A stretch of DNA of 64,000 nt from Fluviicola sp. (GTDB lineage: Bacteria; Bacteroidota; Bacteroidia; Flavobacteriales_D; Crocinitomicaceae). Position 1 is the stretch's first letter, and the number at the start of each line of letters is the position of its first letter. The translations under genes and the position numbers were made by a program. Where the stretch lies: the NCBI GenBank assembly GCA_020849495.1, contig JADLGD010000111.1:1-64000 (forward strand). The letters are read 5' to 3'. Under the pieces are notes generated by a model. It was not told where the DNA came from. It searched no databases and saw only the letters and a list, made by a program, of their open reading frames with translations. Below, piece after piece: positions 37,903-46,789 of this stretch.

Positions 37903-39144
37903 TTAACCAATCAATTGATTGAACAAGGTAAAATTGTCATTCAGGTATTCAAATTGAAATCCTTGTTGGTGCAAACGTTCTTTTAATCCTTCCAATTTAT
38001 CAGCTGCTGGTAATTCGATACCTACCACCGCAGGGCCACTTTCCCGATTGTTTTTTTGTGAAAATTGGAAATGCGTGATGTCATCTTCCGCTTGCAACAC
38101 ATCCGAAACGAAAGCTTTCAAAGCCCCTGGTCGTTGCGGAAATTCAATCAAGAAATAATGTTTTTTTCCGAGGTATAACAAGGCTCTTTCTTGAATTTCA
38201 GGCATTCTGAAAATGTCGTTGTTGCTTCCACTCACCACACAAACAAGCGTTTTTCCTTGAAATTGTTCCGCATACAGTTCTGCAGCTGCGATGGTCAAAG
38301 CTCCTGCTGGTTCTACAACCAAAGCCTCTTCATTGTACAAACGCAAAATTGTAGCACACACTTTCCCTTCTGGAACGGTCAACACCTCATCCAATCCGCT
38401 TTTACAAATGGAAAAAGTTGTTGACCCAACTTGTTGAACAGCTGCCCCATCAACAAATTTATCGATCTGTTCCAAGCGGGTAACTTTACCGTTTTCAATT
38501 GATTTTTTCATGGTAGGTGCTCCAGCAGGTTCAACGCCTATGATTGTTGTTTCAGGATACAATTGTTTGAAATAAGAAATGACTCCTGCAGCTAAACCAC
38601 CTCCGCCAATAGGCACTAAAATAACATCCGGCACGGCTTCCATTTGTTGGGCAATTTCTAAACCCACAGTAGCTTGTCCTGCAATGATTCGTTCATCATC
38701 GAAGGGATGAACAAAACAACAATTTGTTTCATTTTCATACTTTTTGGCCGCTAAAAAAGCAGCGTCAAAAGTTTCTCCAGCTAGGCGAATTTCAACCCAT
38801 GATTGACCAAAGCGTTTTACAGCAGCAATCTTTTGCTTCGGTGTTGTTTCAGGCATAAAGATTACACCTTTCACCTGCATGAGTGCACAGGCAAATGCTA
38901 CGCCTTGCGCATGATTTCCCGCACTTGCACAAACAACTCCAGCCGTTTTTTCAGCTTCGCTTAATCCTGACATCAAGTTGTAAGCACCGCGGATTTTATA
39001 AGAACGAACTACTTGGGTATCTTCACGCTTCAACCACACCGATCCTTTGGTCAAATTAGAAAGCGTTTCATTGTAAACAAGCGGGGTAACTGGTATTACC
39101 CCTTCTCGCTGTTGATGTGCCGCTTCAATTTTATCTATTCCGAC
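37903..39144 (-). CDS. ilvA: Threonine ammonia-lyase
   Basis: VWLKREDTQVVRSYKIRGAYN, PIGGGGLAAGV; likely start MVGIDKIEAAH. Confidence 0.93.
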   Translation of the reverse strand, partial: VGIDKIEAAHQQREGVIPVTPLVYNETLSNLTKGSVWLKREDTQVVRSYKIRGAYNLMSGLSEAEKTAGVVCASAGNHAQGVAFACALMQVKGVIFMPETTPKQKIAAVKRFGQSWVEIRLAGETFDAAFLAAKKYENETNCCFVHPFDDERIIAGQATVGLEIAQQMEAVPDVILVPIGGGGLAAGVISYFKQLYPETTIIGVEPAGAPTMKKSIENGKVTRLEQIDKFVDGAAVQQVGSTTFSICKSGLDEVLTVPEGKVCATILRLYNEEALVVEPAGALTIAAAELYAEQFQGKTLVCVVSGSNNDIFRMPEIQERALLYLGKKHYFLIEFPQRPGALKAFVSDVLQAEDDITHFQFSQKNNRESGPAVVGIELPAADKLEGLKERLHQQGFQFEYLNDNFTLFNQLIG

Positions 39145-40196
39145 CATACAGTAGTTGTTGTTGGACGCAATTGTCTGACAGCTCTTCCTGTTTGCCACAA
39201 TTCAGATTCGCGGATTTCAGTCAATTCTTTATCCAAAGTATCACGATAATCAGCCTTACTTCCTTCTTCGATCACTCGTTTTGCTTCTCTTCCTGATTTC
39301 ACCTCATCGTACAACGATTCAAACACTGGAAGGGCTGCATCACGGAATTTACCTTTCCAGTCCAAGGCACCGCGTTGAGCAGTTACAGAAGTGTTGGCAT
39401 ACATCCAATCCATTCCTTTTTCTGCCACTAAAGGCATTAAACTTTGGGTCAATTCTTCCACTGTTTCATTGAAAGCTTCAGAAGGAGAATGTCCGTTTTT
39501 TCGCAACACTTGGTACTGTGCTTCAAACATTCCTGCCAAAGCACCCATTAAGATCCCACGCTCTCCTGTCAAATCAGAATACACTTCTTTTTTGAAATCC
39601 GTTTCGAACAAGTAACCCGAACCTACTCCAATTCCTAAAGCGATAGCCGTTTGCATGGCATTTCCAGAAACATCTTGGTAAACAGCCACACTGGAATTGA
39701 TTCCTTGTCCTTGTAGAAATAAACGGCGTAAAGAAGTACCGGAACCTTTAGGAGCTACTAAAACCACATCAATATCTGCAGGTGGAACAATACCTGTTTG
39801 CTCATGAAAAGTGATGCCGAAACCGTGAGAAAAATAAAGCGTTTTTCCTTTTGTTAAAAATGGTTTTACGTGTTTCCAAGCATCAATTTGTCCAGCATCC
39901 GATAGTAAATAACATACGATTGAAGCTTGTTGACATGCTTCTTCAATTGAAAACAAGTTTTCACCTGGAACCCAACCATCTTCAACTGCTTTTGCCCAAC
40001 TTTTTCCCCCTTCACGTTGACCAACGATCACGTTAAATCCATTGTCTTTTAAATTAAGCGATTGACCCGGACCTTGTACGCCATAACCAATCACCGCGAT
40101 TGTGTCGTTTTTTAATGTTGAAAGTGCTTTTTCTAAAGGAAATTCATCGCGGGTTACAACGGTTTCGTTTACTCCGCCAAAATTGATTGTTGCCAT
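39135..40196 (-). CDS. ilvC: Ketol-acid reductoisomerase, resembling fungal Ilv5
   Basis: IAVIGYGVQGPGQSLNLKDNGFNVIVGQR; NGHSPSEAFNETVEELTQSL. Confidence 0.94.
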   Translation of the reverse strand: MATINFGGVNETVVTRDEFPLEKALSTLKNDTIAVIGYGVQGPGQSLNLKDNGFNVIVGQREGGKSWAKAVEDGWVPGENLFSIEEACQQASIVCYLLSDAGQIDAWKHVKPFLTKGKTLYFSHGFGITFHEQTGIVPPADIDVVLVAPKGSGTSLRRLFLQGQGINSSVAVYQDVSGNAMQTAIALGIGVGSGYLFETDFKKEVYSDLTGERGILMGALAGMFEAQYQVLRKNGHSPSEAFNETVEELTQSLMPLVAEKGMDWMYANTSVTAQRGALDWKGKFRDAALPVFESLYDEVKSGREAKRVIEEGSKADYRDTLDKELTEIRESELWQTGRAVRQLRPTTTTVWSE

Positions 40197-40207
40197 AATT
40201 TTATTTT

Positions 40208-40735
40208 TTAAAAGGTTGTGTTTAATTCGTGTAAATAACTCTCTAATGTTTTCATCGGTTTAGTAACCGCTACTCTACCTGAACGCGAAAATTCAAGTAC
40301 TTTGAAAGCTCGTAAATCTTTCACCAATTGTTGAATTGCCTGTTCGTGACCTGTTAATTCAAAAACCACGTATTCACTAGAAACAGCTAGCATTCGTGCA
40401 TTGTGTTTTCGAATTAACTGTTCCAGTTCAGGCATTTTCGCATCATCCATTGCTGTTTTCACCAAAGCCAATTCTTGGTAAACAATGTCTGCATCTGCAT
40501 GGTAAAAGGCTTTTAGGACCTCCACTTGTTTTTCCAATTGAGCGACTACTTTTTTCACCAAATCTTCTGATTCTCTCACCACAATGGTGTAGCGGTAAAC
40601 ATCCTCTACTTCCGTTTCTGATGCGGTGATGCTATCAATGTTGATGTGTCTTCTAGTAAAAATGATGGTCAATCGGTTCAAGATACCGATCGTGTTTTCT
40701 GTAAAAACAGAAATGTTGTATCGTTGCTTTTCCAT
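40208..40735 (-). CDS. ilvN: Acetolactate synthase small subunit
   Basis: ACT domain NISVFTENTIGILNRLTIIFTRRHINIDSITAS. Confidence 0.93.
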   Translation of the reverse strand: MEKQRYNISVFTENTIGILNRLTIIFTRRHINIDSITASETEVEDVYRYTIVVRESEDLVKKVVAQLEKQVEVLKAFYHADADIVYQELALVKTAMDDAKMPELEQLIRKHNARMLAVSSEYVVFELTGHEQAIQQLVKDLRAFKVLEFSRSGRVAVTKPMKTLESYLHELNTTF

Positions 40736-40736
40736 G

Positions 40737-42437
40737 TTAATTCAAACGTATTTCGGCAACAGATGCGCCAGTTTCTACCATTGGGAATACATTGTCTTCT
40801 TGCTTCACCACACATTCGAGTAAATAACTATCAGGAGAAGAAAGAAAATCGTTCAGGACACTTTCCAGGGCTTCTCTTTCATGAACTTGTTTTGCTTCCA
40901 CCCCATAAGCTGCGGCAATTGCACAAAAATTGGGGTTGACAATTTCAGTAAACGAATAGCGACGATCAAAAAACAATTGTTGCCATTGACGCACCATCCC
41001 CAAAAAGTTGTTGTTCAGAATCAAGATTTTTACTTTTAGTTGGAACTGTAAAATGGTTCCCAATTCTTGCAGAGTCATTTGAAAACCACCATCTCCAATG
41101 ATTGCGACAACCGTTTTTTCAGGAGCTCCTAAACTTGCACCGATTGCTGCTGGCAAACCAAATCCCATGGTACCCAAGCCACCTGAAGTGACATTCGTTC
41201 TTGGATCTTGGTAATGAAAATAGCGTGCTGTAACCATTTGGTGTTGACCCACATCCGTCACTACAATCAAATCATTTCGTTTTTTATTCAATTCAGACAA
41301 GCGGTGAACCACCTCTGCCATGCGCAAACTTTCTTCTTCAGGATGTATCGCCGCAGAAATGATTTCATCTTGTTCTACTTGCTCCAAATCTCGGAATTGT
41401 TGTAACCATTGACCGTGATTGCGATTTTCAACACGCTTTGTCAATTCAACCAGTGCTGTTTTAGCATCTGCATGAATGGCTACATCAGCTGGGATGATTT
41501 TATTCAACTCCGCAGCATCAATGTCAACATGAATCACTTTTGCTTGTTTGGCATAACGAGCAACATCACCTGTTACCCGATCATCGAAGCGCATTCCAAT
41601 TGCCAACAACACATCGCACTCATTCGTAAGTACATTAGGTGCATAATTCCCATGCATTCCTAAATAACCAACATACTGCGGATGGTCCGCTGGAAAAGCA
41701 CCCAAGCCAAGTAAGGTAGATGCTACAGGAATTCCAGTTTTATCTGCAAAATCCATTAATGCATCTTCCGCTTCACTCAATAAAATTCCTTGACCGATGA
41801 GTAAATAAGGTTTATGAGCAGCGTTCAATAGTTCAGCCGCCGATTGGATAGCATCCATTGACATTTTTGGCTGTGGAACATAGCTGCGAATACTCGTACA
41901 AGCTTGATAAGTAAAATCGCATTTACCGAATTGAGCATCTTTGGTAATATCCACTAAAACTGGACCTGGTCGACCAGTACGAGCTATGTAAAATGCTTTT
42001 GCCAATGCGGGTGCAATGTCTTCTGCTCTTGTTACTTGAACATTCCATTTGGTCACAGGCATTGAAATTCCAATCACATCCGTTTCTTGAAATGCATCCG
42101 TTCCTAATAGATGAGAAGCAACTTGTCCGGTGATACAAACAACTGGTGTAGAATCAATCATTGCATCAGCCAAACCTGTTATGAGATTCGTAGCTCCAGG
42201 GCCAGAAGTTGCGAAGACAACCCCTGTTTGTTTACTCACTCTTGCAAACCCTTGAGCAGCATGGATGGCACCTTGTTCATGACGGACTAAAATGTGTTTG
42301 ATTTCATCTTTGAAATCGTACAATGCATCGTAAATGGGCATGATTGCACCACCTGGGTAACCAAAAATTGTTTGAACTTTTTCTTCGCGCAAACAGTGCA
42401 TGACTGCTTCTGCGCCTGTAAGTTGTTTTGTTTTCAT
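40737..42437 (-). CDS. ilvB: Acetolactate synthase large subunit
   Basis: ThDP enzyme: [42 protein letters not shown]. Confidence 0.96.
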
Positions 42438-42438
42438 A

Positions 42439-44118
42439 TTATAAATCTGTTACACAACCTTCTGAAGCACTTGAAACTGTTTTCAAGTATTTGTAAAGCA
42501 CGCCTTGTTTTACTTTGGGTTCAGGTTGCAGCCAAGATGCTTTTCGTTGTTCCAGTTCTGATTGACTCACATTGAGATGCAAGGTATTTGTACGAGCATC
42601 AATTGAAATAACATCGCCATCTTGAACCAATGCAATGGGTCCACCATCAAACGCTTCAGGAGTGATATGACCAACCACAAAACCGTGTGAGCCTCCAGAA
42701 AATCTTCCATCGGTAATCAATGCCACTTTATCTCCCAAACCTGCTCCCATGATGGCAGAAGTTGGTTTGAGCATTTCCGGCATTCCAGGTCCACCTTTTG
42801 GTCCACAATTTCGAATGACGACAACTGTTCCAGGAACAATTTTAGCACTTCTTACAGCAGTTATCACATCAGCTTCATCTTCAAAAACCATTGCTTTCCC
42901 TGAAAAAGTATGACCTTCTTTCCCAGATATTTTTGCTACTGCCCCTTTTGGAGCAAGATTTCCAAACAACATTTGTAAATGTCCATTTGCAGCAATTGGG
43001 TCTTCAATTTTTCGGATCACATCTTGATCTAAGGGTAAATCAGGAACTTCTGCTAAATTTTCAGCAAGCGTTTTTCCTGTAACGGTTAAACATTTACCAT
43101 CCAATAAGCCTTGATGCCACAAGTATTTCATCAGAGCTGGTACACCGCCAATTCGGTGCACATCTTCCATCAAATATTTTCCACTTGGTTTTAAATCTGC
43201 CAATACAGGAATACGATCTGAAACAGCCTGAAAATCTTTCAAGGTCAAAGTAATTCCTACTGAATGAGCCATTGCTATTAGATGCAAGACTGCATTCGTA
43301 GATCCACCCAAAACTGTCACCACAATCATCGCATTTTCAAAGGCTCTTCGCGTCATGATATCACGAGGTTTGATGTCTTTTTCCAATAAAAGTCGCATTG
43401 CTCTACCAGCATCTAAACATTCCTGTTGTTTTTCAGGGCTCAAAGCAGGATTGGAAGAGGAATAAGGCAAACTCATACCTAAAGCTTCTACAGAAGCAGC
43501 CATCGTATTTGCCGTGTACATTCCACCACAAGCACCTGCACCTGGACAAGCATTTTTAATGATTCCTTTGAAATCCTCTGGTGTCATTTTTCCATCCAAA
43601 CGTTGACCTAAAGCTTCGAAAGCAGAGACAATGTTGAGTGATTGACCTTTGTATTTTCCTGAATGGATCGTTCCTCCATAAAGCATGATTGCAGGTCTGT
43701 TTAGTCGACCCATCGCAATGACAGAACCGGGCATGTTTTTATCACAACCAACAACTGCTATCATTCCGTCATACCATTGAGCACCCATGACCGTTTCAAT
43801 GGAATCCGCTATCACATCTCTGGATACCAAAGAATAACGCATACCAGAAGTCCCGTTCGAAATACCATCACTCACACCAATGGAATGAAAAATCAAGCCC
43901 ACCATGTTTTTTTGTTGTACTCCTTCTTTGGCCACTTTTGCCAAATCATTCAAATGCATGTTACAGGTATTACCTTCGTAGCCAGTACTAACAATTCCTA
44001 CTTGCGCTTTCGTAAAATCGGCATCTGAAAAACCGATTCCGTACAACATGGCTTGAGCAGCAGGTTGAGTTTCATCTTGAGTGATGGTTTTACTGTATTT
44101 ATTTAGTTCCATGATCAA
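42439..44118 (-). CDS. ilvD: Dihydroxy-acid dehydratase
   Basis: [43 protein letters not shown]. Confidence 0.97.
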
Positions 44119-45005
44119 ACGTGTAATTGATGGTATTCATTCACAGAAACGCGCATGCGGTAGCGCAATTGGATCAAATGGCTCACGCTGTCTTCCCAAT
44201 TGAAAGGAAAGGTGTAATCATCTAACGATTTTAGTCCAGCTACTTCAGCAGCCGTTCCACAGAAAAATGCAGCATCGGCAGTTTTTACCTCATCTGCAGT
44301 GAAAAAGCGTTCTTCTACAGGTATTTCGAGTTCTTTTGCCAATTCAAAAACAGTAGCACGAGTAATTCCTGAGAGGATGTTACCAAGAGGAGCTGTGACT
44401 AATTTTCCGTCTTTTTCAAAAAAGAAATTTGCGCCAGGACCTTCAGCAATGTTTCCATTCATGTCTGTCAAAAGTGCTTCATCAAACCCTCTTTGTTTTG
44501 CTTCTGTTGTAGCCAAAATACTATTGGTGTAATGTCCAACAACTTTTGCTTCCACATGACAAGCTTTCGGATTCGGTCTTTGATAAGGAGAAAGGCTTAC
44601 TCGTAGTAACTGATCACCTAAATAATTGGCCCATTCCCAAGCCATGATGACAACATGTACCTCATCTGTTGGAGAAAGTGACATATTGTTTCCTAAATAC
44701 ACCAATGGTCGGATATACGCATCTGTCAAATTATTTCTTCGTAACAATTCATAGGTAATTGCTTCTAATTCAGCAGATGAATAAGGCAAATTGATGTGCA
44801 TCATTTTAGCTGAATAGTGCAAACGATCAAAATGCTCTTTGGCTTTAAAAATACGTGTCCCGTCTTCCGTGTCGTAAGAGCGAATCCCCTCAAACACACC
44901 GTTTCCATAATGCATGGTTTGGTTATACAAAGATGCAGTAGCATCTGAAGCTTTGACAAATTTTCCATTGAGGAAAAGCACCGTGTTGTTGTTAAAATAA
45001 CTCAT
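44115..45005 (-). CDS. ilvE: Branched-chain amino acid aminotransferase
   Basis: [37 protein letters not shown]. Confidence 0.95.
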
Positions 45006-45023: not shown

Positions 45024-45053
45024 AAAAAAACCATCCCCCTTGCGAGGAATGGT
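45024..45053 (-). terminator. Attenuator terminator of the ilv operon
   Basis: Minus strand ACCATTCCT-cgcaag-GGGGATGGT then TTTTTT; ends 19 nt before the ilvE ATG. Confidence 0.85.
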
Positions 45054-45099
45054 GTACCTAAAACTGCTTTATGTTTTATTCTATACCAACCTCATTCAG

Positions 45100-45162
45100 T
45101 CATGTTCCAATAATGGAAATGACGCTAATAATGTTGTTGATATGGAATGCGTTGAATTTCAT
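45100..45162 (-). CDS. ilv leader peptide MKFNAFHINNIISVISIIGT
   Basis: ATG AAA TTC AAC GCA TTC CAT ATC AAC AAC ATT ATT AGC GTC ATT TCC ATT ATT GGA ACA TGA; 6 Ile and 1 Val in 20 codons; purine-rich upstream region. Confidence 0.85.
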   Translation of the reverse strand: MKFNAFHINNIISVISIIGT

Positions 45163-45181
45163 TTTTTCTCTTTTTGAAAGT

Positions 45182-45216
45182 CAGACATACACTGTCTCTT
45201 CACCAGTATATGTCTG
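45182..45216. other. 13-bp inverted repeat upstream of the ilv leader
   Basis: CAGACATACACTG-tctcttcac-CAGTATATGTCTG, one mismatch. Confidence 0.7.
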
Positions 45217-45258
45217 AACTTTACATTTAATGTAGCTTCGTAGTTGTGTGTGACAAGA

Positions 45259-46789
45259 TTATTTGAAGAGTTTAGTAGTATAATTTGTTTCTTGATTATC
45301 AAATGAAATCAAATAGATACCTGAATTCAATGATTGATTGATGGGAACCTTCACAGAATATTCGCTCGGTTTCAAATCCAACTCAAGTTCTTGGATCACT
45401 TGTCCAAGGACATTGACCAATGTTAATTTCACTGTTTTCTGACGGTTTACATCGTAATTGACAGTCAAGGTATTTGTTTCATTGTTGAATCCAAGTTGGA
45501 AACCGTAAGGATTATCGAACTGACATGCACTATTTACAGCAATTGTTTCAAGGTGTGTTATCTTTCCGTCTTCATCCACTTGAGACAATTTATAATAATT
45601 GATTCCCAAATCAGCTCCAGTATCGATGTACTTGTACACATGACTAGATGTTGTACTACCAGCGCCTTTGATGGAATCAAGGAAAACAAAATCGGGGTGC
45701 TCTTCAGATGCTCTTTCAAGGATGAAGTATTCGTTTTTGCGTTCTGATTCTGTTTTGAAATTCAACACAACTCCTTCTTCTTTTTTACAAATTGCAGTAA
45801 AGTTGGAAAGCTCAACAGGTAATGGACTTGGTTCTGTAGTAAAACTACTTGCTTCCAAATAAACTACACTTTCGTATGCACCGTCTGAAAGATCCATGAT
45901 GATCATTCGAATGTGATACGTTTGACCAGGGGTTAATCCACTTTGACTAGCCGTCAAAATACGTGTGTTTCCATTCATTTGTGTACCATCAATAGTTCCC
46001 AAAAAATCTACTGTAGGACTTCCATTAACCCAAGAAGGATTCGCTGCTGTACATTTTGCTGCGCTTGGTCCTCCACCAGAAGAACCTACCACACCATTGT
46101 TTACTGAATTGATGGAAACAATTGAACCATTACTTAAACGAGCAATGTTTTTTTGCATCATTGGTATAACCTTGACCACCTGTAACTCCAGGACCACTCA
46201 ATAAAAATCCGAATCGATCACTGTAATCAGAACATTGATAATTGATCAAACCGCTGTTATCTGAATATTCTTCAGATCCAAAAATATAGCGGAAAGAAGC
46301 ATTCGATGAAACAGGAACAAAATCAAATTCAAGAATAGCAGTGTTATAATAGGTGCCACCACCAGCTAGCACATTCAAGTCGTTTTGTACTGTTGGACAT
46401 GTTCCACCTTTACGTATTTCGTTAGCAGTACAGCTAACATAATTTCTTGTGTATTGTGTTGCTTTCGGGTTAGCTCCAAGAGTTAAAGGAAGTTCACTTG
46501 TGTGTCCTGTTGTGAGTACAACTCCTGAACTGATTCCCATTTGTGTAGCTGTGGTAGTAGCTGTTGTAAAATAGCCTACTTGATAACGAGAGGTTTGATT
46601 GTACACTCCACTGAAAGTAACATTGGAAATCACGGTTCCACTTGTTGATGGAACTAAGACTCCATCGACTAATTGTGTAGGTGTATATAAAGTATTGTTG
46701 ATTGTTAGTTGACCGTAGCAAACTGAAATCAAAGTCAACAAACTAGTTGTAATGATTGACAATAAAACGAAGGTAAAATACTTTTTCAT
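45259..46789 (-). pseudogene. Choice-of-anchor-L / T9SS adhesin-like gene interrupted by a frameshift (ORFs 46130..46789 and 45259..46197)
   Basis: Upstream ORF carries FRYIFGSEEYSD...FGFLLSGPGVTGGQGYTNDAK; the continuation NIARLSNGSIVSINSVNNG lies in another frame after an A7 run; C-terminal T9SS domain NSGIYLISFDNQETNYTTKLFK. Confidence 0.75.

Follow-up and report, generated by a model that had tools for sequence, protein, structure and literature searches.

The region that precedes ilvE in this Fluviicola genome is, in all likelihood, a ribosome-mediated transcription attenuator of the ilvEDBNCA operon, and judging by its sequence it very probably works as a switch that leaves the ilv genes off unless isoleucine is scarce. 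Much of the class Bacteroidia has the same predicted device ahead of ilvE, in some cases as two in a row. Comparison of genomes establishes how the element is built, that it is conserved, that its pairings are compensated between loci and that leader codons fit the operon genes; from these features we infer that the leader is translated, that transcription terminates in vivo and that the operon responds to starvation.

In the proposed mechanism, a ribosome would translate a 20-codon peptide while RNA polymerase transcribes the leader. With ample Ile-tRNA (and Val-tRNA), the ribosome would arrive at the stop codon and cover or disrupt a segment termed region 2, and the terminator would form before ilvE. 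With charged Ile-tRNA scarce, it would instead stall in the Ile/Val run and block region 1, leaving region 2 free to pair with the terminator 5' arm, which would permit read-through. Without translation, the 1:2 hairpin would form and termination would be the likely default in the window, i.e., the whole 64,000-nucleotide stretch of DNA that was analysed.

Anatomy of the ilvE leader region

The gene order of the original prediction, ilvE-ilvD-ilvB-ilvN-ilvC-ilvA, is confirmed with NCBIfam models:

44115..45005, minus strand: ilvE, branched-chain aminotransferase, first gene of the operon (TIGR01122 and NF005146 above cut-off)
42439..44118, minus strand: ilvD (TIGR00110 above cut-off)
40737..42437, minus strand: ilvB (TIGR00118 above cut-off)
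40208..40735, minus strand: ilvN (TIGR00119 above cut-off)
39135..40196, minus strand: ilvC (TIGR00465 above cut-off)
37903..39198, minus strand: ilvA, threonine ammonia-lyase, Ile-specific step (NF006390 and TIGR02079 above cut-off)

These ORFs overlap or nearly abut, and the true start of ilvA is probably near 39147. An Ile-heavy leader would fit an operon that includes ilvA and hence the isoleucine-specific step. The operon is patchy within the genus, as a close IlvE is found in only 2 of its 14 genomes. The gene upstream, co-directional with ilvE and ending at 45259, is a choice-of-anchor-L/T9SS sorting-domain gene appearing as two overlapping ORFs (46130-46789 and 45259-46197; 45259-46789 in all), a split possibly due to a frameshift or a sequencing error. 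Between this gene and ilvE lie the following elements:

45229..45256, minus strand: candidate promoter TTG-N19-TACATTAA, a weak and uncertain 9-of-12 sigma-70-like match
45100..45162, minus strand: predicted leader peptide ORF MKFNAFHINNIISVISIIGT and stop (ATG 45162-45160, TGA 45102-45100), from the sequence and the I/V-rich leaders in relatives
45136..45150, minus strand: region 1, leader segment (ATTCCATATCAAC core) pairing with region 2, from the duplex and the minimum-energy fold
45078..45093, minus strand: region 2, GAGGTTGGTATAGAAT, whose partner is region 1 or the terminator 5' arm
45044..45053, minus strand: region 3, terminator 5' arm ACCATTCCTC
45024..45053, minus strand: predicted intrinsic terminator, with a 10-bp stem, a GCAA loop and a U7 tract

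The leader ORF is as first described, its letters and coordinates agreeing: 20 codons with six Ile, one Val and no Leu, the control codons being Ile 8, 11, 12, 15, 17 and 18 together with Val 14 (GTC-ATT). The terminator, made up of a stem-loop at 45053-45030 and a run of seven T at 45030-45024, folds at -14.6 kcal/mol (z -4.5) and is a slightly better hairpin than had been claimed; its position stands, while the distance from its end to the ilvE ATG (45005) is 18 nt and not 19. The leader stop lies 94 nt from the ilvE start, with the terminator in between, and 46 nt from the terminator, compared with the usual 17-30 nt in relatives' loci. From start codon to U tract, the whole leader (148 nt) has a folding energy of -41.2 kcal/mol (z -5.43), a value that none of 200 shuffles reached, and its minimum-energy structure includes both the 1:2 hairpin and the terminator.

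Regions 1 (45136-45143) and 2 (45083-45093) are located where the original prediction had put them, and region 2 does begin 6 nt past the leader stop. Their 1:2 pairing is strong (-20.9 kcal/mol, z -2.4) and extends over some 12 bp interrupted by a single mismatch, within a longer hairpin. The 2:3 antiterminator that had been proposed also exists in the window, but its strength is moderate and below average (-9.0 kcal/mol; z -0.7 relative to shuffled versions of region 2).

The candidate promoter is not significant, since shuffles average 2.6. Between the upstream gene and the leader, a 5' hairpin at 45178-45223 folds at -23.9 kcal/mol (z -5.9) and lacks a U tract; being single copy in the genome, it is ruled out as a repeated element. 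The window holds a single attenuator unit, with no second one. At the gathering threshold, neither the window nor its relatives gave any Rfam match, the Bacteroid-trp motif (RF01692) included, and a permissive search returned chance-level matches only (best sub-threshold E-values 0.31-1.9).

Leaders of the same kind are predicted elsewhere in the genome. At hisG (L150, G000:C21) a His leader, MKMTQLHHHHHNMHS, is followed by a terminator, as is a Trp leader, MQMIATMNLWWWQLSDWVIS, at trpE (L151, G000:C212); at both loci a TAnnTTTG box stands a few nt 5' of the leader ATG. Together with the ilv leader, these suggest that the organism uses leader-peptide control for at least three pathways.

Recurrence, covariation and codon content across the Bacteroidia

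Loci were compared via IlvE in 64 usable relatives from named genomes and in 47 genomes from an even draw of the class. The original prediction held that an Ile-rich leader should recur upstream of ilvE in relatives, and so it does, together with a terminator. Under a strict rule (an ATG ORF of 12-42 codons with at least 35% I, L or V and a stop no more than 50 nt from the terminator), the unit is found on the coding side in 49/64 relatives and 35/47 class-level genomes, and on the opposite strand in 1/64 and 0/47; with a 30% I/L/V threshold, the coding-side counts rise to 54/64 and 40/47. These strict-rule counts are unselected, an earlier tally of 65/79 having taken in loci preselected for the element. 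Three rounds of dinucleotide shuffles yielded no unit at all, and flanking tiles 7 in 756.

Carriers include Flavobacteriales, Fulvivirga and Cyclobacteriaceae, Pedobacter and Flavihumibacter. In the closest relative with ilvE, L080, which belongs to the same genus (IlvE 81% identity), leaders and hairpins are largely unlike those of the window in sequence; the architecture is thus conserved while the sequence changes. The search came up without a leader-terminator unit ahead of ilvE in L034, L035, L106 and the Flavobacterium loci L042, L045 and L048-L050; in these five Flavobacterium loci (L042, L045, L048, L049, L050) ilvE comes directly after other coding sequence. Another group of Flavobacterium loci (L016, L021, L024, L029, L046) has an extra I/V/L-rich ORF, such as MKTSPNIWNKIVIVINTIISIGLLVLIIKCS, just 5' of the leader, with one terminator only.

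Covariation in both alternative structures, which the original prediction had singled out as a check, was assessed in 39 dereplicated loci by permuting partners among loci 2000 times; automatic choice of the leader was wrong in a few loci (tandem units, non-ATG starts), and L080 and L107 were set by hand. The post-stop region pairs with its own terminator 5' arm (2:3) at a mean of -12.0 kcal/mol against -8.8 kcal/mol for permuted partners, and the leader with the post-stop region (1:2) at -14.6 against -12.4 kcal/mol, with 0/2000 permutations as good in either case; as the loci are related, these counts are not strict probabilities. The 1:3 control, leader against terminator arm, fails, 122/2000 permutations being as good. 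Pairing 1:2 is less consistent across loci than 2:3, with z below -1 in only 44% of loci. Sequences differ as the pairing is kept, for example TGAGAAA/TTTCTCA, GACGAGA/TCTCGTC and GGCGC/GCGCC for 2:3, and AAGCAGACAAT/ATTGTCTGCTT (L006), TATCA/TGATA (L037, L044) and AACATC/GATGTT (L065) for 1:2.

The geometry that had been claimed, in which a ribosome stalled at the Ile codons frees region 2 and one at the stop masks it, agrees with a model in which the transcript was ended before the terminator 3' arm and a ribosome-sized block was put at each codon. The expected number of antiterminator pairs averages 7.3 with the block at I/V/L codons, 5.5 at other codons and 0.63 at the stop, and in 39/39 loci the I/V/L value exceeds the stop value. 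For the window, the model gives about 7.6 pairs with a stalled ribosome, 2.8 with one at the stop and 3.6 without a ribosome. The density of I/L/V codons peaks 9-12 codons before the stop, where modelled antitermination also peaks. Stalling yields more modelled antitermination than no ribosome in only 23/39 loci, so that termination is a less certain default for part of the members when the leader is not translated.

The leaders are enriched in Ile (4.5-fold) and Val (1.6-fold) and depleted in F, A, G and M. Their Leu content tracks the leu genes of the operon: Leu makes up 0.46 of I+L+V in the ten genomes that have leuD co-directional and within 16 kb downstream, 0.20 in the 19 with leuD at another place and 0.09 in the 20 that lack it (p 2e-5), phylogeny being a partial confounder because the ten leuD-downstream genomes come from few families. 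Searches found neither leuA nor leuD in the genome under study, and its ilv leader is also without Leu. In the 39 loci, leader Val codons are GTC in 57/112 cases (51%) against 54/683 (8%) in the ilvE genes; the leader GTC codons include codon 14 of the window (45123-45121), and 37/57 leader GTC codons are followed by an in-frame ATT. tRNA searches bearing on this GTC bias returned zero Val tRNA, from a tRNA list that is incomplete. The comparative predictions of attenuation that could be put to the genomes, namely architecture without sequence conservation, both 1:2 and 2:3 pairing, codon position and codon specificity, have all held, and this supports the attenuation interpretation.

Tandem units in relatives

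Two complete Ile/Val leader-terminator units in series precede ilvE in 14 loci from at least six families; the same-genus relative is of this tandem form and the window of the single-unit form.

Upstream of ilvE: tandem loci L080 (-305..-27), L047, L107, L108, L013, L115-L117, L121, L124-L126, L132 and L145

Antiterminators are matched within units, with means of -12.6 and -14.9 compared with -9.1 and -8.9 across units (p 1e-4). In L108 and L013 the first of the two units is weak (z -1.2). TAnnTTTG, a promoter element described for Bacteroidota whose consensus is quoted in PMC9723704, occurs as a promoter-like box directly before the first leader in 10/14 tandem loci and between the first terminator and the second leader in 1/14. 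It is somewhat probable that ilv control in the Bacteroidia repeatedly lines up two attenuators for the same signal after a single promoter, both having their own matched antiterminator, which would give a steeper or tighter Ile/Val switch, with leader codons tuned to the genes of the operon and Val sensed mostly via GTC.

Alternative readings and comparison with known systems

The terminator could instead end transcription of the co-directional T9SS gene, the ORF and pairings being coincidental and ilvE having its own promoter downstream, for which the 87-142 nt between terminator and ilvE in some relatives would leave room. However, the 18-nt gap of the window leaves little, the unit recurs before ilvE and is rare in flanking tiles, codon content and pairings covary across loci, and in tandem loci the promoter-like box stands before the first leader and hardly ever between units, which together render this reading very improbable. 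The chances are slimmer still that the operon is controlled by another route, either translational reinitiation at ilvE, a mechanism put forward for leader genes in general (PMC4833913), or a riboswitch binding a small molecule or protein. The leader is long and structured, as either would suggest; yet the distance from its stop to ilvE falls outside the peak at 11-14 nt given for Bacteroidetes (PMC4833913) and spans a terminator, and for a riboswitch no Rfam family matched and no conserved aptamer-like sequence was seen. That the ORF makes a small hydrophobic membrane protein with a function of its own and not a sensor is as improbable as a terminator serving the T9SS gene: the leaders abound in I, V and L and some, e.g., MNLISTALIIVIINVILLLILQRDKAL (L052), resemble a transmembrane helix, but the peptide is unconserved even inside the genus, the depletion of F, A, M and G speaks against a membrane location, Leu is high mainly with leu genes in the operon, and a stable peptide would leave the covarying hairpins unexplained.

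Ribosome-mediated attenuation, the preferred reading, is a textbook mechanism, and the leaders of the enterobacterial ilvGMEDA and ilvBN operons are its proteobacterial ilv representatives. The window element shares with them a leader rich in the amino acids of the pathway, alternative 1:2, 2:3 and 3:4 pairings and a terminator before the first gene; it differs in phylum and in operon order, and Bacteroidia leaders carry mostly Ile and some Val, with Leu mainly where the operon has leu genes.

The original prediction had suggested that a Bacteroidota case would be rare. This was overstated, as such units abound in the class and Flavobacterium psychrophilum is already reported to show strong clues to attenuation by leader peptides upstream of amino-acid operons, with pheA and hisG among the conserved structured 5' elements (PMC9723704). 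Phylum, class and the presence of leader peptides upstream of amino-acid biosynthesis operons are shared with that work, whose main text mentions no ilv operon and contains no analysis of alternative structures or covariation. The window element thus adds a well-supported member to a known class. In the literature searched, no description of ilv attenuation in this phylum was found, and Lopatovskaya et al. 2010 (Mol Biol 44:128) may predict some. Bacteroid-trp (Rfam RF01692) is likewise a predicted cis-regulatory RNA of Bacteroidetes (PMC2864571), and its name points to an amino-acid (Trp) operon; it concerns Trp and not Ile/Val, and matches neither the window nor the Trp leader of the genome. 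Outside Proteobacteria, uORF-dependent attenuation of a branched-chain operon has been examined experimentally for Corynebacterium ilvBNC (PMC11857589, PMC10272879), compared with prediction here; that system is actinobacterial, has another first gene and follows a three-hairpin model.

With its clear limits, the locus set provides a comparative example of ribosome-mediated attenuation in Bacteroidota, earlier proposals having been made in passing and little analysed. It makes specificity testable, since Leu codons follow leu genes, and it concerns attenuators for which no Rfam family is available for annotation. The tandem form in relatives, if confirmed, would be a new variant. The only other tandem leader-peptide attenuator in the literature searched is Salmonella mgtCBR, whose leader ORFs answer different signals (ATP and proline) and which has been termed a singular example (PMC3641672). 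Both systems place two leader ORFs with attenuators in series; by comparison with mgtCBR, the tandem ilv units both carry Ile/Val leaders, each with its own terminator, and this raises the question as to what a second, like sensor placed behind the first contributes.
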